Shown here in pieces: positions 1,309 through 16,430 of a stretch of 64,000 nucleotides of DNA. The notes under the pieces were generated by a model. That model saw nothing but the letters and a program-made list of their open reading frames with translations. It did not search any database and was not told the DNA's origin. Source of the stretch: Gordonia sp. PDNC005 (lineage in GTDB: Bacteria; Actinomycetota; Actinomycetes; Mycobacteriales; Mycobacteriaceae). The translations under genes and the position numbers were made by a program. Every line of letters begins with the position of its first letter. Position 1 is the stretch's first letter. The stretch lies in NCBI RefSeq assembly GCF_016919385.1, contig NZ_CP070351.1, positions 3,038,001 through 3,102,000 of the forward strand, in the 5' to 3' direction.

Positions 1309-3426
1309 CTACTCGCCTGTCGCCTTGGCGATGATCTCCTTCGACACGTTCGCCGGAACTTCAGCGTACGAGTCGAAAACCATGGAGTAGTTTGCACGGC
1401 CCTGAGTCTTCGACCGAAGGTCTCCGATGTAGCCGAACATCTCCGACAGCGGAACCTGAGCCTTGACGACTCGAGCACCGCTGCGCTCCTCCATGGCCTG
1501 GATCTGACCACGGCGGGAGTTCAGGTCGCCGATGACGTCGCCCATGTAGTCCTCCGGAGTCGTGACCTCAACGGCCATGATCGGCTCCAGAATGACGGGC
1601 TGCGCCATGCGTGCGGCTTCTTTCAAAGCCTGCGCACCGGCGATCTTGAAGGCCATCTCAGACGAGTCGACGTCGTGGTACTGACCGTCGATGAGACTGA
1701 ACTTCAGGTTGACCAGCGGGTAGCCGGCGAGAACGCCGTACTGCATCGCGTCCTGCGCACCGGCATCCACCGAAGGGATGTACTCACGCGGAACGCGGCC
1801 ACCGGTGACAGCGTTGTTGAACTCGTAGGTCGCGCCGTCTTCAGCGTCGACCAGCGGCTCAAGCTTGACGATGACCTTGGCGAACTGGCCCGAGCCACCC
1901 GTCTGCTTCTTGTGGGTGTACTCGTGCTTCTCGACGGTCTTGCGGATCGTCTCGCGGTACGCGACCTGCGGCTTGCCGACATTCGCCTCGACCTTGAACT
2001 CGCGCTTCATGCGATCGACGAGGATGTCGAGGTGGAGCTCGCCCATGCCGCCGATGACGGTCTGACCGGTCTCATCGTCGAGCTTGACCGAGAACGTCGG
2101 GTCCTCTTCAGCGAGCTTCTGGATCGCAGTGCCCAGCTTCTCCTGGTCGGCCTTGGTCTTCGGCTCGATCGAGACGTTGATCACCGGGTCCGGGAACGTC
2201 ATGGACTCGAGAACGATCGGGTTCGCCGCATCACACAGGGTGTCGCCGGTCGTGGTGTCCTTGAGGCCGATCATCGCGTAGATGTGGCCGGCCACCGCGT
2301 CGTCGACGGGCATCTCCTTGTTGGCGTGCATCTGGAAGAGCTTGCCGATGCGCTCCTTCTTGCCCTTGGTCGCGTTGAGCACCTGGGTGCCCGGCTCGAG
2401 CTGACCCGAGTAGACGCGGACGAAGGTGAGCTTGCCGAAGAACGGGTGAGCCGCGATCTTGAAGGCAAGAGCCGAGAACGGCTCGTCCTTGCTGGGCTTG
2501 CGGATCAGCTCTTCTTCTTCGTTGTTGACGGCGTGACCGTGGACTTCGCCGATGTCCAGCGGAGTCGGAAGGAAGTCGATCACAGCGTCGAGCATCGGCT
2601 GCACACCGCGGTTCTTGAACGCAGACCCGCACAGCACCGGGTAGAGCTCGGAGTTGACGGTCATCTTGCGGATGGCGCCCTTGATCTCCTCGACCGAGAG
2701 CTCCTCGCCGCCGAAGAACTTCTCCATCAGCGCGTCGTCGGACTCGGCGACGGTCTCAAGCAGCTTCTCGCGGTACTCGGCCGCCTTGTCGGCGAGATCC
2801 GCGGGGATCTCCTGCACCTCGTACGAGGCGCCCATCGTCACGTCACCCTTGGCGTCGCCCGGCCAGACCAGTGCGCGCATCTCGATGAGGTCGACGACGC
2901 CCACGAAGTCGTCCTCGGCACCGATCGGGAGCTGGATGACGAGCGGCTTCGCGCCCAGACGATCGATGATCGTCTGCACGGTGAAGTAGAAGTCCGCGCC
3001 CATCTTGTCCATCTTGTTGACGAAGCAGATGCGGGGGACGTCGTACTTGGCGGCCTGACGCCAGACCTGCTCCGACTGCGGCTCGACGCCTTCCTTGCCG
3101 TCGAAGACTGCGACGGCGCCGTCGAGGACGCGCAGCGAACGCTCGACCTCGACGGTGAAGTCGACGTGGCCGGGGGTGTCGATGATGTTGATCTGGTTCT
3201 TGTTCCAGAAACAGGTGACCGCGGCGGACGTGATCGTGATGCCGCGTTCCTTCTCCTGCTCCATCCAGTCGGTGGTCGACGCACCGTCGTGGGTCTCACC
3301 GATCTTGTAGTTCACACCGGTGTAGAACAGGATTCGCTCGGTGGTGGTCGTCTTACCGGCGTCGATGTGCGCCATGATGCCGATGTTGCGGACCTTGTTG
3401 AGGTCGTTCAGCACTTCCTGTGCCAT
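1309..3426 (-). CDS. fusA: Elongation factor G
   Basis: EF-G is the translational GTPase that drives tRNA-mRNA translocation and, with RRF, ribosome recycling. The product has 705 residues, the usual length. G1 is [15 protein letters not shown] near residue 20, G3 is DTPGHVDF, and G4 is NKMD. The rest matches EF-G domains II to V, including the late [19 protein letters not shown] segment. The start ATG at 3426 follows GAAGGAACCAC, a reasonable ribosome site. It lies 103 nt downstream of rpsG, with a stable hairpin in the gap, and 175 nt upstream of tuf. Nothing looks abnormal. Confidence 0.98.
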
Positions 3427-3483
3427 GTGGTTCCTTCGGAAGAGTTCGGGCTAAAGACTGCTAGTGGTCTCCAGGATGCCCGA

Positions 3484-3511
3484 CCGCCGGAGACAGTGAA
3501 GTCTCCGGCGG
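3484..3511 (-). promoter_or_regulatory. Hairpin between rpsG and fusA
   Basis: An 11-bp perfect stem, CCGCCGGAGAC (3484-3494) and GTCTCCGGCGG (3501-3511), closes a 6-nt loop in the 103-nt gap between rpsG and fusA. It lacks a T-run. It could be an attenuator, a processing site, or a binding site for S7, which is the autogenous regulator of str operons in Escherichia coli. The structure is seen; the role is inference. Confidence 0.45.
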
Positions 3512-3529
3512 GCCGGCCGTCCTAGAAAG

Positions 3530-4000
3530 TCACCAACGGTAGTGAGCGAAGGCGCGGTTGGCTTCGGCCATCTTGTGAGTGTCCTCACGACGCTTCACCG
3601 AAGCGCCGAGACCGTTCGAGGCGTCGAGGAGCTCGTTGGCGAGACGCTCGACCATCGTCTTCTCACGGCGCTGACGGCTGAACGTCACCAGCCAGCGGAG
3701 CGCGAGGGTGTTGGCGCGACCGGGCTTGACCTCGATCGGCACCTGGTAGGTGGCGCCACCGACGCGGCGGCTCTTGACCTCGAGGGTGGGCTTGACGTTG
3801 TCGAGCGCACGCTTGAGGGTGACGACCGGATCGGTGCCGGTCTTCTCGCGAGCCTGCTCGAGGGCTTCGTACACGATGCGCTCGGCGGTCGACTTCTTGC
3901 CGTCCAGCAGGATCTTGTTGACGAGCTGGGTGACCAGGGGCGAACCGTACACCGGGTCGTTGATCAGCGGGCGCTTGGGAGCGGGTCCTTTACGAGGCAT
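3530..4000 (-). CDS. rpsG: 30S ribosomal protein S7
   Basis: S7 nucleates assembly of the 30S head by binding the 3' domain of 16S rRNA and contacts tRNA at the E site. The product is 156 residues, the normal bacterial length. It starts with the typical [10 protein letters not shown] and ends AFAHYRW. The start ATG at 4000 sits only 3 nt after the rpsL stop, preceded by AAGGGAAG, so rpsL and rpsG are co-transcribed and probably translationally coupled. It is the second gene of the str operon. Confidence 0.98.
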
Positions 4001-4003
4001 GAC

Positions 4004-4375
4004 TTAGCTTCCCTTCTTGGCGCCGTAGCGGCTGCGTGCCTGCTTGCGGTCCTTGACACCCTGGGTGTCGAGCGAGCCGCGGATGATGCGGTAACGAACA
4101 CCCGGGAGGTCCTTCACACGACCGCCGCGGACGAGCACCATCGAGTGCTCCTGCAGGTTGTGGCCCTCACCCGGGATGTAGGCGGTGACCTCGACGCCAC
4201 TCGTCAGGCGCACGCGGGCGACCTTACGAAGTGCGGAGTTCGGCTTCTTCGGGGTGGTGGTGTACACGCGAGTGCACACGCCGCGTCGCTGCGGGCTCCC
4301 CTTGAGGGCGGCGGTCTTCTTGATCGACGCCTTGTCCTTGCGGCCCTTACGGACCAGCTGGTTAATCGTTGGCAC
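4004..4375 (-). CDS. rpsL: 30S ribosomal protein S12
   Basis: S12 lies at the decoding centre and affects accuracy; changes in it give streptomycin resistance in many bacteria. The product is 123 residues with the standard [12 protein letters not shown] start and the conserved [18 protein letters not shown] and [12 protein letters not shown] segments. In both segments the lysines that are classically changed in resistant strains are the wild-type residue. The start is GTG at 4375, supported by AAGGAG about 12 nt upstream. It is the first gene of the str operon, driven by a promoter some 270 nt upstream. Confidence 0.98.
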
Positions 4376-4543
4376 TGAGTTCTTTTCTCCTTGTGGGCCG
4401 GCTCCCGCCGGTCCGATGTGTAGTCACGGTTGGTGCTCCGGGCACTTCGGTCGGTGTCGCATTTCTGCACTCCGAGCGATGTCCGCAACTCGCCCCACCG
4501 GCACGTTTGCGCCGGTCAACTATGGAATCACTACCCCGAGGTC

Positions 4544-4616
4544 GGGCGTGTCAGACACGCCCGCGCGGATTCGCGACACCCTCGTTCAGGGCCGTCGTCG
4601 ACGACCTGATCGAGGG
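4544..4616 (-). promoter_or_regulatory. Structured leader of the str operon mRNA
   Basis: The stretch from rpsL (4376) to the next gene (4732) has no gene. Its rpsL-proximal 265 nt would be leader RNA if the promoter at 4649-4677 is used. It contains GGGCGTG/CACGCCC (4544-4562, 5-nt loop) and a longer imperfect hairpin (4579-4616) whose outer arms are CCCTCG and CGAGGG and inner arms CAGG and CCTG. These could be a regulatory fold. I do not recognise a named riboswitch or ribosomal-protein leader family. Confidence 0.4.
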
Positions 4617-4648
4617 CAGCACCTACCGTGGGTAGGCACCGACGAAAT

Positions 4649-4677
4649 ACTTTACCGCCCGGATTTACCGAGGTCAA
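4649..4677 (-). promoter_or_regulatory. Main promoter of the str operon
   Basis: On the minus strand, TTGACC (4677-4672) is followed after exactly 17 nt by TAAAGT (4654-4649), a good match to the housekeeping sigma consensus. Transcription would start near 4641-4642. It is the best vegetative promoter in this gap and points into rpsL. Confidence 0.7.
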
Positions 4678-4731
4678 AATCATTGACACAGCTCACCCAA
4701 CGGCTCGTGAACGTCTGACGACAACGAGTGA

Positions 4732-5397
4732 TCAGTCGAATTCCTCAACCCCGGCGAGCAGGTCACGCGCGGCGTCGCGGGCCGCGTTCTCGTCACCGTC
4801 GACCACCGCGTCGACGACCGCGTCGTGCAGGTCGGTGTACGACGGCCCTCTCGCGACGTCGCGCTGTGCCACCGACTGCCGGAGCGCCGGAAGCAACGAG
4901 TCGTAGAACTCCAGATACACGTCGTTGTGACTGGCCGCGACGATGGCACGGTGCAGTTGCGCGTCGGTGTCGACCGCAACGTCGGGGTCCACCAGACCGG
5001 TCCACGCACGATTGCGCAGTTTCTGCGCCGTTCGCAGGTTCTTGATGTCGGCGTCGTCGCGACGCCGGGCCGCCAGACCCGCCGCCGTCACCTCAAGCGC
5101 CTCCCGTAGTTCCATGAGGTCCTGCCGCCGCGCCGCCGCGAAGAAGTCGGTGAACGCGACCTCCTGCTCATCGGTCGCGATCACGTAGGTGCCCGAGCCC
5201 TGCCGTCGCTCGAGGAGTCCGGCGTGGACCAGCGACTGCACGGCTTCGCGGACGGTGTTGCGAGCCGTTCCCGTCATCTCGCACAGCGCGGGCTCGGTGG
5301 GGATCCGGTCGCCCACCGACCACCGGCCGGACGCTATCTCAGCTCGCAACTGGTCGGTCACCTGGGAGATGAGACTCTGACGCTTGATGGTCTGCAC
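4732..5397 (-). CDS. GntR-family (FCD/FadR-type) transcriptional regulator
   Basis: The protein has an N-terminal winged helix (about residues 1-70, with LRAEIASGRWSVGDRIPTEP and TARNTVREAVQSL) and a C-terminal all-helical FCD ligand-binding domain with the spaced acidic and histidine residues typical of the family. I choose the GTG at 5397 (VQTIKRQSL...), giving 221 residues. An ATG at 5439 is also open, but it would place the coding region over the divergent promoter. A TAnnnT -10 (TACGCT, 5405-5410) lies 8 nt before the GTG, consistent with a leaderless mRNA. It is divergent from a CynX-type transporter, which it probably controls together with itself. The effector is unknown; FCD regulators usually sense organic or fatty acids. 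Confidence 0.9.
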   Translation of the reverse strand: MQTIKRQSLISQVTDQLRAEIASGRWSVGDRIPTEPALCEMTGTARNTVREAVQSLVHAGLLERRQGSGTYVIATDEQEVAFTDFFAAARRQDLMELREALEVTAAGLAARRRDDADIKNLRTAQKLRNRAWTGLVDPDVAVDTDAQLHRAIVAASHNDVYLEFYDSLLPALRQSVAQRDVARGPSYTDLHDAVVDAVVDGDENAARDAARDLLAGVEEFD

Positions 5398-5400
5398 ATT

Positions 5401-5447
5401 CTGTAGCGTAAAACACTTTGCAGGGATTCGACCATTCATCCTATGAT
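5401..5447. promoter_or_regulatory. Divergent GntR/MFS promoters with operator-like dyad
   Basis: For the transporter, TTGCAG (5418-5423), 18 nt and TATGAT (5442-5447) place the start of transcription at or next to the ATG at 5455. For the regulator, TACGCT on the minus strand (5405-5410) lies 8 nt before its GTG. An imperfect 23-bp dyad at 5401-5423 has outer arms CTG/CAG and inner steps GT/AC. It covers the regulator -10 and the transporter -35, the right place for a repressor of both genes. Confidence 0.6.
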
Positions 5448-5454
5448 TTCTGGC

Positions 5455-6702
5455 ATGACTGCGACTGCCTCCACCGTCACCGACGCGTCGACGCCGCTGA
5501 TGGGCGTCTGGCGTGGACGCATCGTCACCCTGATCGCCATCGTGGTGTTCGCGTTCACCCTCCGAACCGCCGTCACGTCGATGACGCCACTTCTCGGGCG
5601 GATCTCTGCCGACCTCGGTTTCAGCGACACCGTCAGCGGCCTGCTCGGCATGCTGCCGACCTTGGCGTTCGGCATCGCCGGAGTCGTCTCCCCCGCGCTC
5701 GGCCGCCGGTTCGGCATCGAGCAGGTGACGCTCGCCGCGGTGGTCATCACCGGCGTCGGCATCGGCACTCGCGCTCTGAGCGGCAGCGTTCCCGTCCTGG
5801 TCCTGCTCTCATGTGTCGCCCTCTTCGGCATGGGCATCGGCAACATTCTGATCCCGCCGCTGGTGAAGCGCTATTTCTCCGACCGGATCGCATCGATCAG
5901 CACCGCATACATCGTGTTCGTGCAGATGGGCACGATGATTCCGGCCGCAGTCGCGATCCCGCTGGCCGACGCGACAGACTGGCGCACGTCGCTAGCCGTC
6001 TGGGCGATCGTTCCGCTCGCCGCGCTCGGCCCGTGGATCTGGGTGGTCCGGGAGCGACGGACTGCCCTGCGCCGCGCCGCAGCGGAGTCCGACGGCGCAC
6101 CGTCGGAGGCCGCGAAGCTGCCCGTGTGGCGCACGCCGATGGCCTGGGGCCTGACCCTGATGTTCGGCATGACGTCCGCCTGCACCTACGCCATGTTCAC
6201 GTGGATGCCGAAGATCGTGACCGACGCAGGCGGAAGCGAGTCGCTCGGCGGTGGAATGGTCGCTACGTTCTCCGCGATCGGCCTCGCGGCGACGCTCATC
6301 GCTCCGTGGCTCTGCACCCGGTTCGCGAACCCATTCGGGTTCACCGTTCTGTTCGCGGCCTCGTGGCTCGCGGGCTTCGCCGGCCTGATGTGGGCACCGC
6401 TCTCGGCGCCGTTGCTGTGGGCTCTGCTCTGCGGTCTCGGACCGACGACCTTCCCGATGGCGTTGACGCTGATCAACGTCCGAACCCGCACGAGTTCCGG
6501 CTCGGCGTCGCTGTCCGGCTTCGGGCAGGGCGTCGGCTATCTGCTCGCCTGCGCCGGCCCGATGCTGTTCGGAGTGCTCCACGATGTCAGCGGCGGGTGG
6601 GGCACGCCGTTCCTGCTTCTCACCGCGATGACCGTTGTCATGCTTGGCGGCGCCTGGGTCATCTGCCGACCGCGGTACCTCGAAGACCAGTTGAAGGCCT
6701 GA
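5455..6702 (+). CDS. MFS transporter, CynX/NimT (cyanate permease-like) family
   Basis: This is a 415-residue integral membrane protein with about twelve hydrophobic segments. The N-terminal pattern (LRTAVTSMTPLLGRISADLG, then LLGMLPTLAFGIAG) is that of the CynX branch of the major facilitator superfamily. Members move small anions or drugs; the substrate here cannot be named. The ATG at 5455 is chosen over one at 5443 because the latter lies inside the -10 hexamer TATGAT. The chosen ATG coincides with the predicted transcript start, so the mRNA is probably leaderless. Its divergent GntR partner is the likely regulator. It converges on rskA with a 13-nt gap and no obvious terminator. Confidence 0.9.
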   Translation: MTATASTVTDASTPLMGVWRGRIVTLIAIVVFAFTLRTAVTSMTPLLGRISADLGFSDTVSGLLGMLPTLAFGIAGVVSPALGRRFGIEQVTLAAVVITGVGIGTRALSGSVPVLVLLSCVALFGMGIGNILIPPLVKRYFSDRIASISTAYIVFVQMGTMIPAAVAIPLADATDWRTSLAVWAIVPLAALGPWIWVVRERRTALRRAAAESDGAPSEAAKLPVWRTPMAWGLTLMFGMTSACTYAMFTWMPKIVTDAGGSESLGGGMVATFSAIGLAATLIAPWLCTRFANPFGFTVLFAASWLAGFAGLMWAPLSAPLLWALLCGLGPTTFPMALTLINVRTRTSSGSASLSGFGQGVGYLLACAGPMLFGVLHDVSGGWGTPFLLLTAMTVVMLGGAWVICRPRYLEDQLKA

Positions 6703-6715
6703 CCGAGCATCGCAC

Positions 6716-7432
6716 CTAGCCGAGCGGCAGACTCGCCACCGGATCGGAGATCATCGTCTCCGGACGCGCCGCATCGCCGACGGTGAACGCGATGGACGTG
6801 GCGTCTCCGAGATCGTCGACGGTGGCGGTCGTCGAAGGTGCTACGTCGTCCGACTTCATCACACCGCCGAGACGAGCCCCGTTCGGACCGACCAGCCACA
6901 GCTGGTAGACGGTGCCTGCGGCGGGTGGCGGGACGTCGTTCATCACGAGGACGCCCGCTCCTGCCGACTCCGAGTATGTGACGGACGCCCGTCCGCTGGC
7001 CAGTGGACCGGTGGTGGTTCGCACGTCGGTCGCACCGAAGACTCGCTCGGCCGTCGTCTGTGTCGGCGGGTCCTGACGTGACGCGGTGTAGCCGATGATC
7101 CCGCCACCGACCGCGACGACAACCGCCGCGGCTGCTGCGGCAGCGATCCAACGCGGCCGCCGGGAATCAACGCGGCGTCCTCTGTCGACTCGAGCCGCCT
7201 CATCGAGGATCTCGTCGCGGAGTCCGACACGAGGCGTCTGTGCAGTGGCCTCGCTGAGGTCGGCCAATACATCGCGGACGGAGGCTACCTCCGTGCGGAA
7301 CGCGTCCCGCACCGAAGCGTCAGCGGCCGCGACCCGTGCCTCGACTCTGGCTCGCCCGAGTTCGTCCAGTGCGTCGAGCGCGTAGGGAACAGCCATGTCG
7401 AGCAGGTCGTCGTGCTCGTTCGACTCCGGCAT
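6716..7432 (-). CDS. rskA: Anti-sigma-K factor RskA
   Basis: RskA holds SigK inactive at the membrane until regulated proteolysis releases it. The protein has a cytosolic N-terminal part of about 90 residues (MAVPYALDALDELGRARVE), one transmembrane segment (about residues 95-117, WIAAAAAAAVVVAVGGG) and an extracytoplasmic RskA domain with the signature GTVYQLWLVGPNGARLGG. The ATG at 7432 has GGGGGA 8 nt upstream; an ATG at 7441 is also possible but abuts that site. Either way the gene starts at the sigK stop, so the two are coupled. The order sigK-rskA is the same as Rv0445c-Rv0444c in M. tuberculosis. Confidence 0.93.
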   Translation of the reverse strand: MPESNEHDDLLDMAVPYALDALDELGRARVEARVAAADASVRDAFRTEVASVRDVLADLSEATAQTPRVGLRDEILDEAARVDRGRRVDSRRPRWIAAAAAAAVVVAVGGGIIGYTASRQDPPTQTTAERVFGATDVRTTTGPLASGRASVTYSESAGAGVLVMNDVPPPAAGTVYQLWLVGPNGARLGGVMKSDDVAPSTTATVDDLGDATSIAFTVGDAARPETMISDPVASLPLG

Positions 7433-7433
7433 G

Positions 7434-7997
7434 TCAGTCATCCCCCAAACACCCCCTCAGACGCTTCAGTCCATCTCTGATCCGACTCTTCACCGCGGGC
7501 AGACCCACGGCGAGCCGTTCGGCGACCTCGCTGTACGAGAGACCTCCGTAATAGGCGAGCCCGACGGCTTCGGCCTGCAGCGCGCTGAGCGTGGACAGGC
7601 AGTGGCGCACCCGCCGTCCCGCTTCCCTCGCCTGGACCTCCTCGCTCACGTCGTCGACGATCGCGGTGATCTCTCGGGCTCCGTAGTCCGATTCGCGGCG
7701 GGATGCCGACGATTCCGATCTGACGCGGTCGACCGCTCGACGGTGCGCGATCGACAGGAGCCAGGAGACGGGCGCGCCTTCGGCAGGGTCGTATGCCGCG
7801 GCGCCTCGCCACACCTGCAGGTACACCTCTTGGGTGGTCTCCTCGGAGTAGCCGGGATCTCGGAGCACACGCAGCACCATCCCGTAGACGCGTGCGCTGG
7901 TCCGGTCGTACAGGTCGGCGAATGCTTCGACATCGCCTGCGGCAGACCGCGACAGCAGGTCGGCGAGGACGGTCGAGTCGGTGTCCGTGCCGGTCAC
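7434..7997 (-). CDS. sigK: ECF RNA polymerase sigma factor SigK
   Basis: This is an ECF sigma factor with region 2 at about residues 25-95 (VYGMVLRVLRDPGYSEETTQ, then SWLLSIAHRRAVDRVR) and region 4 at about 130-185 (helix-turn-helix SYSEVAERLAVGLPAVKSRI). From the GTG at 7997 the product is 187 residues and begins VTGTD, the same length as M. tuberculosis SigK as I recall it. Upstream starts at 8075 or 8072 add 25-26 residues of no family likeness. It is the sixth gene of a run that begins with the fasciclin lipoprotein. SigK-type promoters precede two genes of that run and dipZ, so it likely controls its own synthesis. M. tuberculosis has a DUF1295 gene just before sigK; it is absent here. 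Confidence 0.93.
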   Translation of the reverse strand: MTGTDTDSTVLADLLSRSAAGDVEAFADLYDRTSARVYGMVLRVLRDPGYSEETTQEVYLQVWRGAAAYDPAEGAPVSWLLSIAHRRAVDRVRSESSASRRESDYGAREITAIVDDVSEEVQAREAGRRVRHCLSTLSALQAEAVGLAYYGGLSYSEVAERLAVGLPAVKSRIRDGLKRLRGCLGDD

Positions 7998-8088
7998 GAC
8001 GAGGTTCCAGAAGTCATCAGCGACCAGAGTAGCCCCGCTGCCCGGTCTCCTGTCGACAACCACACCGACCATCACTCACCGCCGCGGG

Positions 8089-9369
8089 TCAGTTCTTGTT
8101 CTTCACGAAACGCAAGTGCACCACGTCCAGATAGCGAGCGGCGAACCCGGCCTCGGAGTAGGCGAGATAGAACGTCCACATCCGCCGGAAGGTCTCGTCG
8201 AAACCGAGATCGGCGATCAGCGGCCACTGTCCCTCGAACCGTTCCCGCCACAACCGCAACGTCCGCGCGTAGTGCATCCCGAACTCCTCGACGGCGTCGA
8301 TCCGCAGGCCCGCGCTCGCCGCGGCATCGCGCATGGCCTCGTCAGAGGGGATCTGCCCGCCGGGAAAGATGTACTTGTGGATCCACGTGTAAGTCCGCGC
8401 AGACGAGAGCATCCGGTCGTGGGGCATCGTGATCGCCTGAATCGCGGCTCGCCCGGCGGGAGCGAGGAGCCTCTCGACCGTCTTGAAATAGGTCGGCCAG
8501 TACGCCATGCCGACGGCCTCGATCATCTCGACGGAGACGACGGCGTCGTACTCGCCGTCGACAGCGCGGTAGTCCAGCAGGTCGACCCGGATGCGGTCGT
8601 CCAGGCCCGCTTCGTGTGCCCGGTGCAGGGCGTGCGCGCGCTGCTCAGCTGAGAGTGTCACCGAGCGGACCGTCGCCCCGCGGGCTGCGGCGCGCAGGGC
8701 GAGTTCACCCCAGCCGGTGCCGATCTCGAGGACGCGGGTTCCCGCCCCGACCTGCGCGTGGTCGAGGAGACGGTCGATCTTGGCGCGCTGCGCGTCGGCG
8801 AGTCCGTCCCATTCGGTGGCTGCGGCCTGCTCGTCCGATCCGAAATGCGCACTCGAGTAGGTGAGCGTCTCGTCGAGGAACAGCGCAAAAAGATCATTCG
8901 ACAGGTCGTAGTGACGCGAGATGTTCGACCGCGTGTTGTCGACGGAGTTCTCCTCGTCGGACGGTTGGGTCGGAAGCAGCAGGCGTCGGAGTCGCTGCAG
9001 GGATCGCGGAACCACTGTCCCGATCCGCTCGGCGAACGGGACGAGCACACCGACGAGGTCGTCTGCGGTCCACTCCCCCGCCATGTACGACTCGCCGAGC
9101 CCGATCAGGCCGTCCGAGCCGATGCGACGGAAGAACGCGTCGGGGTCGGTGATAGTCATGGTCGGAAGGTCCCCATGGGTCCGGGCAGACGACGGCCCGT
9201 ACTCCACGACGATCGGCAGTCGGTGCGCAACACGCTCGAAGAGGACACGTGCCGCGGCGCCCCGCAGCCCGGAGGTCGCCGCGGCAGGCGCATCCGGCAG
9301 AGCGACTGCCGGACGCCTCGTCCGGTCGGTGAGAAGGGTGGACGGGCGGTCGTCTCGGTCGACGGTCAT
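8089..9369 (-). CDS. ufaA1: Cyclopropane-fatty-acyl-phospholipid synthase family methyltransferase (UfaA1-like)
   Basis: The protein has 426 residues. A Rossmann SAM-binding domain (VLEIGTGWGELALRAAARGA) and the Cfa signature SRHYDLSNDLFALFLDETLTYS place it in the CFAS/mycolic-acid-cyclopropane-synthase family, which transfers a methylene or methyl group from SAM to an unsaturated acyl chain of a membrane lipid. Its length and position match UfaA1 (Rv0447c). The start ATG at 9369 overlaps the stop of the DUF1365 gene by 4 nt (ATGA), showing coupling. With the FAD oxidoreductase and DUF1365 protein it forms a three-gene unit seen in many bacteria and thought to modify lipid acyl chains. The exact product here is not known. 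Confidence 0.9.
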   Translation of the reverse strand: MTVDRDDRPSTLLTDRTRRPAVALPDAPAAATSGLRGAAARVLFERVAHRLPIVVEYGPSSARTHGDLPTMTITDPDAFFRRIGSDGLIGLGESYMAGEWTADDLVGVLVPFAERIGTVVPRSLQRLRRLLLPTQPSDEENSVDNTRSNISRHYDLSNDLFALFLDETLTYSSAHFGSDEQAAATEWDGLADAQRAKIDRLLDHAQVGAGTRVLEIGTGWGELALRAAARGATVRSVTLSAEQRAHALHRAHEAGLDDRIRVDLLDYRAVDGEYDAVVSVEMIEAVGMAYWPTYFKTVERLLAPAGRAAIQAITMPHDRMLSSARTYTWIHKYIFPGGQIPSDEAMRDAAASAGLRIDAVEEFGMHYARTLRLWRERFEGQWPLIADLGFDETFRRMWTFYLAYSEAGFAARYLDVVHLRFVKNKN

Positions 9370-10115
9370 CGGGCAGCCTCTCGTTCGGTGGTTCGGGTTC
9401 TGTTTCGGGGGACGATCGGGAGTCCCGCGGCCCACAGGCGGATGCCGTGGATGCGGATGCGCACCGCGACCAGCCATGGCGCGAGCGGAGTCGTCAGATT
9501 CGCCGCGAGCACGGCGGGAACGGTGGCAGGGCGGGCGTGCCCGGTCATCGTGGCGGTGAACGGCGGCATCCCCGGACGCTCCAGCACCACCGCGACCGAC
9601 ACCCGTCCGTCCGCGGTCGGTACGGGCAGGCTCAGACGGTAGACACCGTCCACCTCGTTGAACGGCGAGACGTAGAAGTCTTTGGCGACCCTCGCCCGGC
9701 CCACCTGATCGGTGCGCACCACGTAGCTGTGGCGTCCGCCGTACGTGTTGTGGACCTCCGCCACCACGTATTCGAGGCGGCCCGCCCGATCGTGGCACCA
9801 GTAGACGCTCAGCGGGTTGAACGTGTAGCCGGCCACTCGCGGAGACAGCAGCGCGGTGACCCTTCCAGTCGGCGCGGGCACGCCCTGCGCGCGCACAGCG
9901 TCGTCGAGCTTGGCGCGCAGACTCCGCCCCGTTTCACTCCCGCGGTCGAAATGGTCGTCGGCAGCGAACCGCGCGAATCCGCGCAACCCGAACGGCAACC
10001 GCGGCAGCTCGTCGAGGTCGACGAGCCACTGCAGGCTGCGGTGGGTGAACCGGTGATCCACCGGCGATCGGCGGATGTGCGAGATTCGCACCGGAACGAT
10101 CTGTGCGCGAGTCAT
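9366..10115 (-). CDS. DUF1365 family protein
   Basis: The product has 249 residues and matches the DUF1365 family (SLQWLVDLDELPRLP near the start, then TLLSPRVAGYTFNPLSVYW-like and AEVHNTYGGRHSYVV segments). The biochemical role is not established. It nearly always sits between an FAD-dependent amine-oxidase-like protein and a Cfa-like methyltransferase, as here and in Rv0448c, so it probably takes part in the same lipid modification. Both ends overlap neighbours by 4 nt: its ATG at 10115 lies in the stop of the FAD gene, and its stop overlaps the ufaA1 start. Confidence 0.88.
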   Translation of the reverse strand: MTRAQIVPVRISHIRRSPVDHRFTHRSLQWLVDLDELPRLPFGLRGFARFAADDHFDRGSETGRSLRAKLDDAVRAQGVPAPTGRVTALLSPRVAGYTFNPLSVYWCHDRAGRLEYVVAEVHNTYGGRHSYVVRTDQVGRARVAKDFYVSPFNEVDGVYRLSLPVPTADGRVSVAVVLERPGMPPFTATMTGHARPATVPAVLAANLTTPLAPWLVAVRIRIHGIRLWAAGLPIVPRNRTRTTEREAAR

Positions 10116-11434
10116 CGCACGGCCCCGGCCAGGAGGTCGTCGCCGGCTCGACCCCACCGCCCACCGAACCGGACGGCAGCCGATGCGCCCGCCGCCGCGC
10201 CGTCTTCGTGGAATCCCCACCCGTGGTACGCGCCGGCGAACGCCACCCTCGGCGTGTCCACTTCGGCGAGACGACGCTGCGCCGACACGGACTCGACATC
10301 GTAGATCGGGTGCTCGTACGTCATCTCGGCGACGACGGTGGACGGGTCGACGAGGTCGGTGCGCCCCATTGTGACCAGTGCTCTTTCCGCGGCGTCGGGC
10401 AGCCGCATCAGGCGCGTCAAGTCGTAGGTCACGGCGACCTCGTCGCCGTCGGTCCGGATCTGATAGTTCCAGGATGCGCGGGCCCGTTGTGCTTTCGGGA
10501 GGAGACTCTCGTCGGTGTGCAGCACCGCGTGCTTCGGCGCGTAGCGCATCGCACCGAGGACGGCGCGCTGCGCGTCCGACGGCTGCTCGAGCATCGCGAG
10601 CGCCTGATGGGGATGGGTCGCGACGATCGCCGCGTCGTAGACGTCGGTGGAGGTCGCGGTCCGGACGGCAACACCGTCTGGGTCCTCACGCAGCGCAATG
10701 ACCGGCGACGAAGTGCGCACGGCTCCGCCGGACTCGGTGATGCCGCGAGCGACCGCCCGGACGTAGGTGTCCGAGCCGCCGACGACGGTTCGCCAGGTGG
10801 GGGATCCGAAGACCGTGAGCATGCCGTGGTGATCGAGGAAGGCGAAAAGGTATCTCGCCGGGTAATCGGCCGCGGTCGCCGAGTCGCATGACCAGACCGC
10901 CGCCACCAGTGGGAGCAGGAAGTTGTCGACGAAGTAGTCCGATAGACCCGCCGACCGGACGAAACTGCTGAGCGGGACGTCGTCGGACCGGTGGTCGAGA
11001 ACCTCTCGGGCGAGAGAGTGGAAACGCTTCACCTCCGCGAGCATCCGGATGTGTCGAATGCTCAGCGCGTTGCGAATGCTCGGGAAGAGACCCCCGACGC
11101 CGAGCGCGCCCGCGTACTCCAGGCCGGTGACCGCGGACGACACGGACATCGACATGTCGGTGTCCTGGGTGGACACGCCCAGTTCGTCGAACAGCCGGAG
11201 CAGGGTCGGGTAGGTCCGGTCGTTGTGGACGATGAACCCGGTGTCCACGTTGTGGATGCGACCGTCCGAGGTGGGAAGCTGCTGGGTGTGCGCGTGTCCG
11301 CCGAGCCGTGCGTCCGCCTCGATGAGCGTGACGACGTAGTCGTGCGAGAGGAGATGAGCCGAGGTCAGACCCGCGACGCCGCTGCCGATGACGGCGATGG
11401 AGGATCCTGGCGAGAGTGGTTTCGGAGTGTTCAC
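10112..11434 (-). CDS. FAD-dependent oxidoreductase (amine-oxidase/desaturase-like)
   Basis: The 440-residue protein opens with a dinucleotide-binding motif, AVIGSGVAGLTSAHLL, then an acidic residue and GGHAHTQQ, and ends with a C-terminal FAD contact (RVAFAGAYHGWGFHEDGAAAG). It is the Rv0449c-type NAD(P)-binding flavoprotein. The substrate is not known; phytoene-desaturase-like redox work on a lipid is plausible from the company it keeps. The start is a GTG at 11434. A SigK-type promoter ends 7 nt before it, so the transcript is probably leaderless. In M. tuberculosis the matching gene heads the sigK operon. Confidence 0.88.
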   Translation of the reverse strand: MNTPKPLSPGSSIAVIGSGVAGLTSAHLLSHDYVVTLIEADARLGGHAHTQQLPTSDGRIHNVDTGFIVHNDRTYPTLLRLFDELGVSTQDTDMSMSVSSAVTGLEYAGALGVGGLFPSIRNALSIRHIRMLAEVKRFHSLAREVLDHRSDDVPLSSFVRSAGLSDYFVDNFLLPLVAAVWSCDSATAADYPARYLFAFLDHHGMLTVFGSPTWRTVVGGSDTYVRAVARGITESGGAVRTSSPVIALREDPDGVAVRTATSTDVYDAAIVATHPHQALAMLEQPSDAQRAVLGAMRYAPKHAVLHTDESLLPKAQRARASWNYQIRTDGDEVAVTYDLTRLMRLPDAAERALVTMGRTDLVDPSTVVAEMTYEHPIYDVESVSAQRRLAEVDTPRVAFAGAYHGWGFHEDGAAAGASAAVRFGGRWGRAGDDLLAGAVR

Positions 11435-11441
11435 GCTAGGC

Positions 11442-11468
11442 GTTCGGAGCCGAGCGGGAATCGGATGG
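11442..11468 (-). promoter_or_regulatory. SigK-type promoter of the FAD gene-sigK operon
   Basis: On the minus strand, CCATCC (11468-11463), 15 nt, then CCGAAC (11447-11442). The hexamers match those I recall for M. tuberculosis SigK promoters, with C for T at the last position. The GTG of the FAD gene begins 8 nt after the -10. It gives sigK a positive feedback loop. Confidence 0.75.
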
Positions 11469-11497
11469 GTCCGATGTCCGCCCGGCCCCGAACGCCG

Positions 11498-12841
11498 TCA
11501 CCGTCCGAGTTGGTGCCGCAACGACTCCTCGAGGATGGCGTGCCGGAATCGGTGCCCGACGTCGTTGAGCGCACGACTGTCGACGTGCTGGTCGGCGGCC
11601 GCCAGTTCTCGGACGCCCTGCCGACCCAGCAGCAGTGCGGGCCCGAACTCGGGAACGGGAAGCACCGCCGGACGATGCAGCACCCGCCCGAGCGTCTTCG
11701 CATACTCCCGACCGGTGACCGGTGCCGGCGCGACCGCGTTGACCGGACCGTCGAGACGGTCGTCGAACAGCGCACGCAGGTAGACGTCGACGAGATCGTC
11801 GAGGTCGATCCACGACAGCCATTGGCTGCCGTCGCCGATCGGCCCGCCGAGGCCCGCGGCGAAGATCGGGCGTTGCAGACGGAGCGTTCCGCCGGTCGGA
11901 CTCTGCACGATGCCGGTCCGCACCTGGACGGCGCGCATGCCCGGCACCCGGGCCGCGCGCTCCCAGTCGTCGACGACGTCGGCGAGGAACCCGCCGCCCT
12001 TCGACGACGATTCTGTGAGCACTTCATCCGGACGTGCGTACCCGTAGAAGCCGATCGCGGACGCGCTGACGAAGGTTCGCACGGTGGACGAGGCTGCGGC
12101 GGCCTGCGCGAGCAGCCGCGTCGGCTCCACACGGGAGTCGCGGATCTCGGCCTTGTGCGAGTCGGTGAACCGACCTGCGATCGGCGCGCCCGCCAGATGG
12201 ACCACCGCGTCGACCCCGTCGAACAGGTCGAGTGCCGGTCCGGTCGGATCCCAGATCCGCACATCGTCGCCACGCCCATCGTGTCCATGCCGGTCGAGCC
12301 GGATCACACGGTGACCACCGGTGGTCAGGAAGGCGCACAGCGCCGACCCGACCATCCCGGACGCTCCGGACACCGCGATCACCGACGGCTCGAAACCCCT
12401 CTCTCGCGCCGTACGGTGCGACGCGAGGTCGTCGGCCACCTGCCGGTGCCGGTATTCGAATGTCGACCGCAACAGAGCTTCGGGCACCGCGGTGTGAACG
12501 CGGTCGACCATCACAGTTCGTCCGTCCGGCGCCTCACGGAAATCATGCACGTGGCGCCACGGCCCGGCGAGGGCAGGCGGGATGCTCGTCGGCCCGTCGA
12601 CGACACGCTCGTCGACGAACCGATGCGGCGGTGAGTAGTCGGACCCGACGTGCTGCGCCTGCCAGCGCAGCCCGCCGGGCAGTCCGAGGACCGCACGCCC
12701 GTCCGCGAGCGACCCGGCTTCGCTGATGGCGCGCATCGGCTGCCACGGCGGCAGGAGACGCCGGAGCGCGCCGGGCCTTCCGAACCATTCGAACACCTCA
12801 TCGATCGGTGCGTCGACAGTACTTGTGAACTCGATGCTCAT
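11498..12841 (-). CDS. SRPBCC-SDR fusion protein (TIGR01777 family)
   Basis: The 447-residue protein has two domains. Residues about 1-150 form a START/SRPBCC lipid- or polyketide-binding fold (SIEFTSTVDAPIDEVFEWFG). Residues about 155-447 form an atypical SDR of TIGR01777 type (VSGASGMVGSALCAFL at the nucleotide site; VHLAGAPIAGRF and SASAIGFYG after it). Substrate unknown. The ATG at 12841 begins at the SRPBCC fold; a GTG at 12877 would add 12 residues without likeness. It sits 45 nt after the fasciclin gene and 63 nt before the FAD gene, whose own SigK promoter is in that gap. It is not part of the M. tuberculosis sigK operon, so its inclusion here is an addition. Confidence 0.85.
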   Translation of the reverse strand: MSIEFTSTVDAPIDEVFEWFGRPGALRRLLPPWQPMRAISEAGSLADGRAVLGLPGGLRWQAQHVGSDYSPPHRFVDERVVDGPTSIPPALAGPWRHVHDFREAPDGRTVMVDRVHTAVPEALLRSTFEYRHRQVADDLASHRTARERGFEPSVIAVSGASGMVGSALCAFLTTGGHRVIRLDRHGHDGRGDDVRIWDPTGPALDLFDGVDAVVHLAGAPIAGRFTDSHKAEIRDSRVEPTRLLAQAAAASSTVRTFVSASAIGFYGYARPDEVLTESSSKGGGFLADVVDDWERAARVPGMRAVQVRTGIVQSPTGGTLRLQRPIFAAGLGGPIGDGSQWLSWIDLDDLVDVYLRALFDDRLDGPVNAVAPAPVTGREYAKTLGRVLHRPAVLPVPEFGPALLLGRQGVRELAAADQHVDSRALNDVGHRFRHAILEESLRHQLGR

Positions 12842-12886
12842 GACTCCAGCCTGCTCGTGGAAACGGTGCGGCGCCACCGACGGCGA

Positions 12887-13558
12887 CTACTTCTTTGCCG
12901 GGGGCATGAGCACCTGGTCGATGAGGTAGACGGTCGCATTGGCGGTACGGACGCCACCGCAGATCACGTTCGCGCCGTTCACCTTCAGATCGTTCCCACT
13001 GCCGGTCACCTCGAGGGTGGAGCCTTCAACGGTCTTGTGCTCTCCCGCGACCTTGGACGGTGCGGCCTGCCCGCTGACGACGTGGTAGGTCAGCAGCGAC
13101 TTGAGACCGGCGTCGTCGGTCTTGAGGGCGTCGAGTGTGTCGGCGGGAACCTTCTTGAAGGCGTCGTCGACCGGCGCGAAGACGGTGAACTCGCCGCCGT
13201 TGAGGGTGTCGACGAGGTTGACGTCGGGGTTGAGCTTGCCGGACACCGCCGCCGTCAGAGTGGTCAGCAGCGGGTTGTTCGACGCTGCGACGGCGACCGG
13301 TTCGGTCGACATGCCGGTCACCGATCCCGGACCTGTGGGGACCTTCGCCGCGTATGCGGAGCATCCGGGGCCGACAAGGTCCGCGGCCGGATCCGCCATC
13401 GTCCCCGATGTCGACATCGCTGTGGTCGTCGTAGTGGCGGTGGTCGAGTCGGCCGCGTCGGACGAGTCGTCGCCCGAACACGCTGCCATGGTCGCCGTGA
13501 GTGCGATGGCGAAGCCCATCGCGGCGATCTTCGCTCCGGTCGTCTGCTTGATGCTCAT
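12887..13558 (-). CDS. mpt83: Fasciclin-domain lipoprotein (MPT83/MPT70-like)
   Basis: The product has 223 residues. An N-terminal signal with a lipobox-like TMAAC ending (Cys about residue 27) is followed by a low-complexity Ser/Thr/Ala linker and a single FAS1 domain ([16 protein letters not shown], then [18 protein letters not shown] and [10 protein letters not shown]). Length and layout match MPT83, a SigK-regulated surface lipoprotein in the M. tuberculosis complex; MPT70 is its secreted form. The ATG at 13558 is preceded by AGGGAG. A SigK-type promoter lies 63 nt upstream, giving a 5' leader of about 55 nt. It is divergent from dipZ, whereas mpt83, dipZ and mpt70 lie together in M. tuberculosis. 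FAS1 domains are adhesive; a redox or host role here is unknown. Confidence 0.88.
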
Positions 13559-13620
13559 CGGTTCTCCCTACGTCGTTGATCCACAGCCCGTCGCCGGGAT
13601 CAGTTGGTGTGACAGGAGCC

Positions 13621-13647
13621 ATTCGGAACCGACTGGTGATCGGATGG
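13621..13647 (-). promoter_or_regulatory. SigK-type promoter of the fasciclin lipoprotein gene
   Basis: On the minus strand, CCATCC (13647-13642), 15 nt, then CCGAAT (13626-13621). Both hexamers are identical to those of the divergent dipZ promoter 16 bp away. Predicted start about 13613, leaving a leader of about 55 nt with a Shine-Dalgarno site. Confidence 0.75.
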
Positions 13648-13663
13648 GTGTGGATTCTCCGAC

Positions 13664-13690
13664 CCATCCGCGATGCCGCCCGTGCCGAAT
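13664..13690 (+). promoter_or_regulatory. SigK-type promoter of dipZ
   Basis: On the plus strand, CCATCC (13664-13669), 15 nt, then CCGAAT (13685-13690). The dipZ ATG at 13698 is 8 nt after the -10, the same distance as at the FAD gene, so the mRNA should be leaderless. Confidence 0.75.
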
Positions 13691-13697
13691 GCCGACC

Positions 13698-15434
13698 ATG
13701 TACACAGTCGTGCTCATCGGATTCGTCGGCGGCCTGATCACCGGCATCTCTCCGTGCATCCTCCCCGTCCTGCCCGTGATCTTCTTCTCCGGCGCGCAGA
13801 GCTCCCGCGAGGCCGGAGATGCCGAGACGGCCGCTCCAGACGAACCTCCACGCAAGCGCTTCGCGGAGGCCTCTCGGCCGTACCGAGTGATAGCGGGGTT
13901 GGTGGTCAGCTTCGCGACCGTGACCTTGATCGGGTCGAGCCTGCTGTCACTGCTCCGCCTGCCGCAGGACACGTTCCGGTGGGCAGGCTTGATCGTCCTC
14001 ACGACCATCGGTGTGGGCCTGATATTTCCAGCGGTCGAACGGCTGCTCGAGAAGCCGTTCGCGCGACTGCCGATGCGGCAGGTCGGGGCGAACAGGTCGG
14101 GCTTCGGTCTCGGCCTCGCGCTCGGCGTCCTCTACGTGCCGTGTGCGGGACCGGTCCTGGCGGCCATCGTCGTCGCCGGGGCCACCGGCGAGATCGGACT
14201 GCAGACGGTCGCCTTGACTCTGGCGTTTGCACTCGGCGCCGCCTTGCCACTGCTGATCTTCGCGCTCGCCGGACGGCGGATCGTTGAACGGGTGTCGGCG
14301 TTCCGACGCCGTCAGCGCGGTGTCCGCATCGCGGGCGGCGTGATGATGATCGGGTTGGCCGTCGCGCTCGTGCTCGACGTCCCGGCTGCCTTGCAACGAG
14401 CCATCCCCGACTACGCCGGGACGTTGCAGGACTCGGTCGGGGGCGCCGACGACCTGACGTCACGGCTCCAACTCGGCGGAATCGTCACAGATGAGAATCG
14501 AGAGCTGTCCAAGTGCGATGACGGCGCCGAGCAACTGCAGAACTGCGGCCGGGCGCCCACGCTGTCCGGGATCAGCGAATGGTTCAACACCCCGGACGAT
14601 GCGCCTCTCCGTCTCGACGACCTCCGCGGCAAGGTGGTTCTCATCGATTTCTGGGCGTACTCCTGCATCAACTGCCAGCGATCGATCCCCCACGTCGTCG
14701 ACTGGTACGACAAGTACCGCGCCAAGGGCCTTGAGGTGATCGGCGTCCACACTCCCGAGTACGCGTTCGAGAAGGTCCCGTCGAATGTGTCTGCCGCGGC
14801 GCGCCGCCTCGGCATCTCGTATCCGATTGCACTGGACCCGTCGTTCTCGACGTGGACGGCGTACCGGAACAGTTACTGGCCTGCCCAATATTTGATCGAC
14901 GCTACGGGCACCGTCCGCCACATCGAGTTCGGTGAGGGCGGCTACGGAACCTCTGAGCGTCTCATCCGTGAGCTGCTGGTCCAGGCTCGTCCGGGAGTCG
15001 CCCTTCCGGAGTCGTCCGAGCGGGACGACACCACGCCGACCGCCTCGACTACCCCGGAGACGTATCTCGGAGTCGGCAAGGTGGTCAACTTCGCGGGCGG
15101 CGGGTCGTATGAAGCCGGGACCGGCTCCTTCACGGCACCGGACGACCAGGCGGGCGACTCCTTCGCGTTGAACGGCCGATGGACGCTCGACTATCAGGGT
15201 GCGACCGCGGTGGCCGACTCGTCGATCTCACTGCATTACCGCGCGAAGAACGTGTTCATCGTCGCCGGCGGCACCGGAACCCTGCGCGTGACCCGCGACG
15301 GGGTCACCTCGGCGGTCCGGATCGACGGTCCGCCCACACTCCACCAGATCGTGTCGACCGAGGACAACGGCAGCGGCCGGGTCGACGTGTCCGTACCCGA
15401 CGGACTGCAGGTGTACTCGTTCACCTACGGCTGA
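13698..15434 (+). CDS. dipZ: DipZ: CcdA-type disulfide transporter fused to thioredoxin-like domain
   Basis: DipZ moves reducing power across the membrane to extracytoplasmic proteins. The 578-residue product has an N-terminal CcdA/DsbD membrane domain (residues about 1-225) with the paired cysteines C20 (SPCILPVLP) and C149 (VPCAGP). A thioredoxin-like domain follows (about 285-440, CINC at C323-C326 in [12 protein letters not shown]), then a beta-rich C-terminal domain. The reading frame is open far upstream, but an upstream ATG at 13689 lies in the -10. The ATG at 13698 fits the promoter and begins the first membrane helix. It is divergent from the fasciclin lipoprotein under the same SigK promoter type. 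Its stop is adjacent to the xthA stop. Confidence 0.9.
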
Positions 15435-16319
15435 TCAGTCGGCCACCGTGTGCGGCAGCTTCACCGACCCGGCGGCGACTCTCGCCGGACGCGACGGCGG
15501 CGGGACGACCGGGCCGATGTCGCCGTCGGGTGCGGTGTCGAGGTCGACGAACACGGGTGCGTGGTCACTCGGCTTGGTGCCCTTACGGGCCTTCCGGTCC
15601 ACCCACGACGCCTGGACTCGTTCAGCGATCGGGCCTCCCGCGAGGATCAGGTCGATCCGCATTCCGAGGTCCTTGTGGAACATCCCCGCGCGATAGTCCC
15701 AGTAGGTGTAGATGCGCTCATCCGGCCAACGGTCCCGCATCACGTCGTGCAGGCCGAGCGCCTCGAGCGAGGCGAGCGCGTCCCGTTCGCGTGGAGTCAC
15801 ATGGGTGTGACCGACGAACGCCGAGGGGTCGAACGCGTCGGCGTCGGTCGGGATGATGTTGTAGTCGCCGCAGATCATCGTCGTCTCGGCTTCGCCGGCG
15901 ATACTCGTGCGGAGCGCTTCGAGCCAGTTGAGCTTGTAGTCGTAGTGATCCGAGTCGACCTCGCGGCCGTTAGGCACATACAGGGAGTGGACGCGGACGC
16001 CCGCACACACAGCGGAGATCGCGCGCCCTTCAGGGTCTCCCGCTGGATCGGGGAAGCCCGGCGCACCGGGAAACGCGACCCGCACATCGTCGAGTCCCAC
16101 CCTGCTGAGCAGGGCGACACCGTTCCACTGGCCCTGGCCCGCATGTGCGAATTCGTACCCGCGTGAGGTCAACTCGTCGCCGAGTTCAGCAGTGAACGCG
16201 TCGTCGGACACCTTGGTCTCCTGCAGGCAGACGACGTCGGGCTGCCGCTCGTCGAGCCACGGCAGCAGCCGAGGGACTCGCTGTTTCACCGAGTTCACAT
16301 TCCAGGTCGCAACACGCAT
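15435..16319 (-). CDS. xthA: Exodeoxyribonuclease III
   Basis: ExoIII is an AP endonuclease and 3'-phosphatase of base-excision repair. The 294-residue product is an EEP-family nuclease: it begins MRVATWNVNSVKQR, has the metal-binding Glu in QETKV, the YVPNGREV and GDYNI motifs, and the final SDHAPVFVDL with the catalytic His. The ATG at 16319 is the family start, and a -10 TACGGT lies 8 nt before it, so the mRNA is probably leaderless. A longer reading frame to 16400 has no family likeness. It ends immediately beside the dipZ stop. Confidence 0.95.
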   Translation of the reverse strand: MRVATWNVNSVKQRVPRLLPWLDERQPDVVCLQETKVSDDAFTAELGDELTSRGYEFAHAGQGQWNGVALLSRVGLDDVRVAFPGAPGFPDPAGDPEGRAISAVCAGVRVHSLYVPNGREVDSDHYDYKLNWLEALRTSIAGEAETTMICGDYNIIPTDADAFDPSAFVGHTHVTPRERDALASLEALGLHDVMRDRWPDERIYTYWDYRAGMFHKDLGMRIDLILAGGPIAERVQASWVDRKARKGTKPSDHAPVFVDLDTAPDGDIGPVVPPPSRPARVAAGSVKLPHTVAD

Positions 16320-16326
16320 GCCGACC

Positions 16327-16332
16327 ACCGTA
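16327..16332 (-). promoter_or_regulatory. -10 element of xthA
   Basis: TACGGT on the minus strand (16332-16327) lies 8 nt from the xthA ATG. The same TAnnnT-N7-start pattern is seen at several genes in this window and fits leaderless transcription. No convincing -35 is visible. Confidence 0.45.
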
Positions 16333-16430
16333 GTCGTCGGCCCGGGCGACGCCGGCGCGAGATCGGTCGCGGCGAGGGCCTCGGCAGACGAACCTTCCAC
16401 ACCAGATGTAATTCATGCCACAGTGGACAC

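Follow-up and report, generated by a model that had tools for sequence, protein, structure and literature searches.

A SigK-RskA locus of Gordonia sp. PDNC005 that gathers fasciclin, DipZ and FAD-DUF1365-CFA genes

Results

A compact SigK-RskA locus

We analysed a window of 64,000 nucleotides (positions 3,038,001–3,102,000 of the 4.26-Mb genome of Gordonia sp. PDNC005), in which the genes of the extracytoplasmic function (ECF) sigma factor SigK and its anti-sigma factor RskA lie together with a set of apparent SigK targets. A minus-strand run comprises the genes of a fasciclin lipoprotein, an SRPBCC-SDR fusion protein, a flavin adenine dinucleotide (FAD) protein of the amine-oxidase type, a DUF1365 protein, a CFA/UfaA1-type methyltransferase, SigK and RskA, and dipZ is divergent from it. 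The locus is a variant of the known SigK regulon. Judging from linkage, homology, promoter motif and literature, it would form a compact, autoregulated SigK-RskA regulon, and we consider, with slightly better than even confidence, that its most likely task is the defence of membrane and envelope against photo-oxidative damage (singlet oxygen or lipid oxidation). Major antigens of the tuberculosis complex are among the targets of SigK, while the signal to which it responds is described as still unknown in PMC7509140; a locus that gathers the apparent targets makes this signal testable.

The assignment to the SigK-RskA (ECF18) type was based on the SigK model and structure matches, the adjacent RskA_N and RskA_C domains, the cysteines Cys133 and Cys183, and the SigK-type promoters at the regulon genes. 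The closest solved structure to SigK was 4nqw (E 2e-56), followed by RpoE of R. sphaeroides, 2q1z (E 1e-15). The nearest named SigK was that of G. sihwensis (71% identity), and Cys133 and Cys183 were invariant across 12 aligned SigKs. The anti-sigma factor of the window has RskA_N and RskA_C domains and no ChrR cupin, which sets it apart from the ECF11 sigma-E-ChrR type. The fasciclin protein, encoded by the sole fasciclin gene of the genome, was closest to the MPT70 structure 1nyo (E 5e-67, 162 residues aligned); its Cys66 and Cys200 align with both MPT70 cysteines and its Cys27 lies, as judged by inspection, inside a lipobox-like stretch. DipZ was closest to M. tuberculosis DipZ, 2hyx (E 5e-135), and unites in one protein a CcdA-type membrane domain (Cys20, Cys149), a thioredoxin domain (Cys323, Cys326) and a C-terminal domain. 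All named families of the locus passed the Pfam cut-offs, except for the SRPBCC part (PF10604, 21.8 versus 27.4 bits).

SigK-type promoter sites

The site search used the SigK consensus attributed to Veyrier 2008. The motif CCATCC-N15-20-CGAATG occurred twice in the window (0.05 expected), both times with a 16-nt spacer and both times in the 139-bp gap between the fasciclin gene and dipZ. With the spacer fixed at 16 nt, these two sites were the only ones in the whole 4.26-Mb genome, and the backwards control gave none. They point in opposite directions, which bears out the SigK-type promoters that the initial annotation had proposed for both sides of the locus. Allowing up to one mismatch, we found four sites in the window, three of them at the locus and one outside it (position 52211, plus strand, one mismatch, 17-nt spacer). 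Up to two mismatches gave 34 sites in the window, so such weak matches carry little weight by themselves. A generic sigma-70 scan returned no sites, against 0.5 expected from shuffles, and is therefore uninformative.

The same motif was recovered from related genes in other genomes. In a de novo search for gapped pairs, after merging near-identical upstream regions, CATCC-N15-CCGAA was the top pair upstream of fasciclin genes (48 of 97 distinct upstream regions) and of the FAD genes (18 of 44), and an unrelated pair came first upstream of the CFA genes (26 of 46). With the consensus itself, sites with up to two mismatches preceded 92 of 114 fasciclin genes (reversed control, 1), 41 of 53 FAD genes (0), 11 of 20 dipZ genes (0) and 22 of 71 DUF1365 genes (0), as well as 65 of 210 sigK (2), 8 of 22 SDR (2), 18 of 151 rskA (4) and 4 of 52 CFA genes (0). 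In 35 of 53 FAD genes and 12 of 20 dipZ genes, the end of the -10 element and an in-frame start were separated by exactly 6 nt, a few genomes being included twice in these upstream and spacing counts. Both genes of the window have this spacing of 6 nt. Because the -10 element so often ends 6 nt before the start, the FAD and dipZ mRNAs are probably leaderless. Ahead of the FAD gene lies the third site of the locus, which has one mismatch and had been missed by the initial annotation. The minus-strand run therefore need not be one transcript; the initial annotation had described a single run, which stands as a gene order.

Exact SigK-type sites were present in 90 of the 131 genomes of our Mycobacteriaceae set. 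Among 150 exact sites listed, at least 29 lie less than 900 bp upstream of a fasciclin gene (about 0.01 expected), at least nine of them where this gene is unlinked from the best sigK. At least six others precede an FAD/DUF1365 pair, with at least four unlinked; the site of G181, which is the fasciclin site itself, is not counted among the six. All these are lower bounds, as 37 fasciclin and 15 DUF1365 positions were entered and further exact sites exist.

All genes named by the initial annotation, with dipZ divergent from the run, were found in place (Table 1). The locus is flanked by an MFS transporter gene (5443–6702) and a gene of the endonuclease/exonuclease/phosphatase family (15435–16400), neither with an obvious link to it.

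Table 1. Genes and SigK-type sites of the locus (window positions)
Feature	Position	Strand	Evidence
rskA, membrane anti-sigma-K factor	6716..7441	-	RskA_N 58.5 bits and RskA_C 62.8 bits, both above cut-off
sigK, ECF sigma factor; overlaps rskA, open frame to 8075	7434..7997	-	NCBIfam SigK 271.6 bits (cut-off 226)
CFA/UfaA1-type S-adenosylmethionine (SAM) methyltransferase, UfaM-like position	8089..9369	-	PF02353
DUF1365 protein, UfaO-like	9366..10115	-	PF07103, 213.7 bits
FAD amine-oxidase-type oxidoreductase, UfaD-like	10112..11434	-	PF01593
Third SigK-type site	11441..11468	-	One mismatch; 6 nt ahead of FAD start codon, leaderless geometry
SRPBCC-SDR fusion, TIGR01777 family	11498..12841	-	PF01370, PF08338; TIGR01777 255 bits, above cut-off; SRPBCC part below cut-off
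MPT83/MPT70-like fasciclin lipoprotein	12887..13558	-	MPT70 match
SigK-type site toward fasciclin gene	13620..13647	-	Exact, CCATCC-N16-CGAATG
SigK-type site toward dipZ	13664..13691	+	Exact, CCATCC-N16-CGAATG; ends 6 nt before ATG at 13698
dipZ	13698..15434	+	PF02683, PF00578, PF17991 (scored on longer frame from 13101)

Linkage of fasciclin, lipid cassette and dipZ to sigK

We detected SigK (E 1e-25) in 118 of the 131 genomes, fasciclin in 105, DUF1365 in 80 and the DipZ C-terminal domain in 20. Of the 102 genomes that have both genes, 70 (19 genera; 0.7 expected) carry a fasciclin gene within 15 kb of the best listed SigK match; for DUF1365 this was the case in 32 of 79 genomes (9 genera; 0.5 expected). 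The chance expectations given here and below assume 5-Mb genomes and an even spread. The adjacency is thus not confined to one strain, and the link between fasciclin and sigK was the commoner state among the genomes examined. In 113 fetched loci, taken apart from the window locus, fasciclin was within 8 kb of sigK in 73 (21 of 27 genera), the whole lipid cassette (the FAD, DUF1365 and CFA genes) was near sigK in 26 loci from 10 genera, and dipZ was so in 7 loci from 6 genera. For eight genomes the locus used was other than the best SigK match: it was selected for its fasciclin neighbour in G268, G216, G257 and G232 and for neighbouring dipZ or cassette genes in G169 and G224, while in G060 and G021 fasciclin was not adjacent; counting the best listed match only gave the same picture.

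The fasciclin gene was near sigK in none of 6 Mycobacterium-like loci (genus g2), and likewise in none of 8 loci of g4 and none of 6 of g82; among 8 further loci of Gordonia it was near sigK in just one. Several Mycobacterium species keep dipZ by sigK. Separation is thus not peculiar to Mycobacterium, and the layout of the window is a minority even within Gordonia, given the single case among the other Gordonia loci. G. sihwensis has the layout of the window, with a photolyase gene on the opposite strand between the fasciclin and FAD genes and no SDR match. The order dipZ-FAD-DUF1365-CFA-sigK-rskA was found in M. montefiorense and Mycobacterium sp. 1245805.9, dipZ-sigK-rskA in M. rhizamassiliense, and the same dipZ-sigK-rskA order with a divergent fasciclin gene in M. 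septicum. M. tuberculosis has two loci, Rv0444c-Rv0449c on the sigK side and mpt83-dipZ-mpt70. A like arrangement was present in G052, a genome whose genus falls together with named Mycobacterium in the DipZ tree and which has fasciclin-dipZ-fasciclin about 1 Mb from the sigK cassette. The DUF1365 match of this genome (G052:C1:3942536-3943261) has one internal TGA and is possibly a broken copy.

A citing paper, in the passage available, gives full-length dipZ in Actinobacteria as exclusive to listed pathogens. The DipZ C-terminal domain occurred in 10 of 31 genera, and an aligned DipZ of 580 aa was found in Gordonia sihwensis; the domain reaches well beyond the pathogens named as sole holders. 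In the family set, 9 of 22 dipZ copies lay within 10 kb of a SigK-like gene as read from match positions, including both copies of the window genome. The second copy (45% identity) follows another sigma factor that resembles SigK (47% identity) and an open reading frame with no Pfam match (L202, 910000–929900, at 7869–11000), and genome G224 holds a similar pair (L097).

In the wider order, 61 genomes had both fasciclin and a strong SigK-like match, and in 28 of them the two were at most 8 kb apart (0.4 expected); outside Mycobacteriaceae this held for 26 of 46. The count took SigK matches to about 4e-40 and left out weaker ones, including those of families f5, f8, f9 and f16. One outside genome (L204) gathers sigK, rskA, fasciclin and dipZ.

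Evolution of the arrangement

A quick tree was built from 143 SigK sequences. On it fasciclin adjacency required 16 changes, against a mean of 40 and a minimum of 33 in 500 shuffles, with the root state present, cassette adjacency 13 changes (mean 29, least 22) with the root absent, and dipZ adjacency 9 changes (mean 15, least 12) with the root absent. The fasciclin root state is biased, since the outgroup loci L203–L220 were chosen for fasciclin adjacency; the root side also held eight Mycobacteriaceae rows. The order-level count is the fairer evidence on the ancestry of this link, and fasciclin-sigK adjacency looks ancestral. The links of cassette and dipZ to sigK are patchy and recurrent, and a full gathering as the ancestral state was rejected for both by parsimony. 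The initial annotation had suggested that the whole set might be ancestral; this holds best for fasciclin and sigK, and is not supported for the cassette (26 of 113 loci) and dipZ (7 of 113). In the DipZ tree the window protein grouped with that of G. sihwensis (100/100), then with genera g78 and g66; Mycobacterium fell into another set with moderate support, with an open fork between.

The patchiness of dipZ and cassette adjacency on the SigK tree would also fit a gathering by chance or by horizontal movement of a cluster with no common function, as would the occurrence of FAD-DUF1365-CFA-sigK-rskA on a Tsukamurella plasmid. We regard this as very improbable: the linkages are far above chance, the spacing from promoter to start is often fixed, and SigK-type sites are kept where the genes are unlinked from sigK.

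The FAD-DUF1365-CFA cassette

The cassette would connect the locus to furan fatty acid synthesis. According to PMC7380195, the consecutively numbered genes RPA2571-2570-2569 of R. palustris are UfaD, UfaO (DUF1365) and UfaM, necessary and sufficient for a furan fatty acid, and an acid of this kind shields R. sphaeroides against singlet oxygen. The cassette of the window has the UfaD-UfaO-UfaM order of R. palustris, and its homology was measured against a Rhizobium plasmid cassette and not against the Rhodobacter or Rhodopseudomonas proteins (FAD protein 38% over 421 aa, DUF1365 32%, CFA 42% over 338 aa). Among the matches listed from mainly open-access literature, and as far as the parts available go, we found no paper that ties mycobacterial SigK to the furan cassette.

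A DUF1365 match was present in 81 plasmid records; seven of these were inspected, and all seven have the FAD-DUF1365-CFA order. The cassette was accompanied by sigK-rskA in Tsukamurella, by an ECF sigma factor and a ChrR cupin anti-sigma factor in Azospirillum and Rhizobium, by MerR, photolyase and SDR genes in Salinivibrio, by MerR in Streptomyces and by an ECF sigma factor with an RskA_C anti-sigma factor in Burkholderia; the stretch on the R. erythropolis plasmid had no annotated sigma factor. The Burkholderia anthina plasmid is conjugative and unites the RskA_C-type anti-sigma factor, the ECF sigma factor, the cassette and a GTP cyclohydrolase in a betaproteobacterium (L227, 2141–2872). 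SnoaL-like genes recurred by photolyase, fasciclin or a furan-type cassette in distant bacteria (three loci: L121, 9854–10261; L225, 9576–10034; L228, 4535–4972).

The lipid genes could instead form a constitutive operon for tuberculostearic (10-methyl) acid, with the other genes as incidental neighbours, and UfaA1 is reported to make 10-methylstearate in vitro (PMC5660069, in part). We set this synthesis aside for the locus as improbable. A FAD_binding_4 gene overlapping a CMAS gene, which is the BfaA-BfaB arrangement, lies elsewhere in the genome at about 4.165 Mb (L229, 4161500–4168500, at 3180–5857), so tuberculostearate need not come from the locus. The FAD protein of the locus belongs to PF01593, with no FAD_binding_4 gene beside a CMAS gene there, and its CFA protein shares 42% identity with its counterpart in the Rhizobium cassette but 33% with the second CMAS of the genome. 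Moreover, BfaA and BfaB sufficed in E. coli with no DUF1365 gene, according to the same source as far as available.

Photolyase and light

Photolyase genes (PF03441) were present in 108 of the 131 genomes. At a distance of up to 15 kb, a photolyase gene accompanied fasciclin in 17 of 99 genomes, DUF1365 in 15 of 73, the best sigK in 15 of 102, and any of the three in 24 of 108 (9 genera; about 2 expected). Since 7 of these 24 genomes come from one genus (g80), the linkage events are fewer than the genomes. In L120 a fasciclin gene and a photolyase match are co-oriented and about 100 bp apart. A fasciclin-photolyase operon in the Mycobacterium-like L121 was ruled out, as an opposite-strand SnoaL-like gene lies between the two.

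The published passages on light and ultraviolet (UV) exposure fit a photo-oxidative role in part. In M. kansasii light induces mpk83 and mpk70 (PMC9861118, in the passages available). In a soil actinobacterium RskA drops under UV, and a possible coordinating role of SigK in this response is suggested there (PMC8965627). R. capsulatus RpoE-ChrR is described as closer to SigK-RskA than to RpoE-ChrR of R. sphaeroides (PMC7074977, in part). The initial annotation had proposed that lipid modification, surface adhesion and disulfide exchange serve one response, which we found too vague a purpose; the UfaD-UfaO-UfaM-type lipid genes and the repeated photolyase linkage point to photo-oxidative stress.

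Proposed mechanism

In the mechanism that we propose, RskA would hold SigK at the membrane, and a photo-oxidative signal would inactivate RskA and free SigK. Freed SigK would transcribe the fasciclin and SRPBCC-SDR genes as a first unit, leaderless dipZ as a second, and leaderless FAD-DUF1365-CFA-sigK-rskA as a third. As the third unit carries sigK-rskA, SigK would thereby amplify itself. The CFA, FAD and DUF1365 products may modify the acyl chains of phospholipids in the manner of UfaM, UfaD and UfaO, by methylation, desaturation and oxygenation, which would yield a furan or a related scavenging, protective lipid. DipZ would pass cytoplasmic reductant outward from Cys20/Cys149 to Cys323/Cys326 and maintain the proper state of envelope disulfides, that of the fasciclin protein among them, and the fasciclin lipoprotein would act at the cell surface.

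Several observations weigh against a photo-oxidative regulon of this composition. The RskA-type anti-sigma factor has no ChrR cupin, and the SigK activity reported in the part available of PMC7509140 followed macrophage contact and depended on cysteines. In 84 of 108 genomes no photolyase gene lay near any of the three anchors, and that of the window genome (at 3,497,191) is not near the locus. In the passages of PMC9861118 that were available, dipZ of M. kansasii was unchanged by light, the fasciclin genes were only modestly induced (6- and 3-fold), and the light-induced loci did not include the sigK operon. The cassette was absent near sigK in 87 of 113 loci and dipZ in 106, and the linkage counts are not phylogenetically independent. 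The top de novo pair upstream of dipZ genes was the reverse complement of the motif, i.e. the facing fasciclin site (6 of 17). Finally, in R. sphaeroides UfaM lies apart from the ufaD-ufaO operon, whose third gene, RSP1089, is dispensable for furan acid (PMC7380195, in part), so the third cassette gene of the window may not be a UfaM.

The main rival is a SigK regulon for general envelope and thiol redox stress, unrelated to light, in which Cys133-Cys183 would act as the sensor, DipZ and fasciclin would form a disulfide core and the lipid genes would adjust the membranes. The invariance of both SigK cysteines agrees with it, as do the dipZ copies close to SigK-like genes, including both in the window genome, and the SigK-RskA redox switch already described, where SigK activity depends on its cysteines (PMC7509140, in part). 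We nevertheless judge it unlikely, though well ahead of a chance gathering: it leaves unexplained the photolyase linkage in nine genera and the cassette beside ChrR, or beside MerR and photolyase, in other bacteria, and dipZ was missing near sigK in most loci.

On the photo-oxidative reading, which we prefer, the ties of the cassette to singlet-oxygen and light regulators elsewhere give a concrete test for the signal of SigK. Across Mycobacteriales, SigK-RskA may be the counterpart of sigma-E-ChrR, sensing photo-oxidative damage (singlet oxygen or lipid oxidation) and inducing furan-type lipids, fasciclin and DipZ, and in some species photolyase as well. In that case MPT83 and MPT70 would be light-stress relics reused in the host, with oxidants replacing light. 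This broader proposal is tentative and we rate it somewhat short of probable. If true, two antigens of the tuberculosis complex would be reused remnants of a light-stress regulon.

Comparison with known systems

The locus shares with the M. tuberculosis SigK-RskA regulon, whose SigK targets are also given in a citing paper (in the part available), SigK, RskA, DUF1365, a UfaA1-type gene, a fasciclin lipoprotein, dipZ and the SigK-type promoter. It differs from it in having one locus instead of two, one fasciclin protein instead of MPT83 and MPT70, a divergent dipZ and an SRPBCC-SDR gene in the run. With the sigma-E-ChrR regulon of Rhodobacter and Rhodopseudomonas it shares an ECF sigma factor with its anti-sigma factor and the FAD-DUF1365-CFA order of R. 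palustris, whereas its anti-sigma factor is of the RskA type, fasciclin and DipZ are added and a furan product is only predicted. The Salinivibrio plasmid cassette also combines FAD-DUF1365-CFA with an SDR gene, and its photolyase has parallels in several relatives of the window, where photolyase is linked to the cassette; its regulator is of the MerR type, in place of SigK-RskA. Finally, BfaA-BfaB of 10-methylstearate synthesis likewise pairs an FAD protein with a CMAS methyltransferase, while the window locus has another FAD family and DUF1365, with a separate Bfa-like pair elsewhere in the genome.

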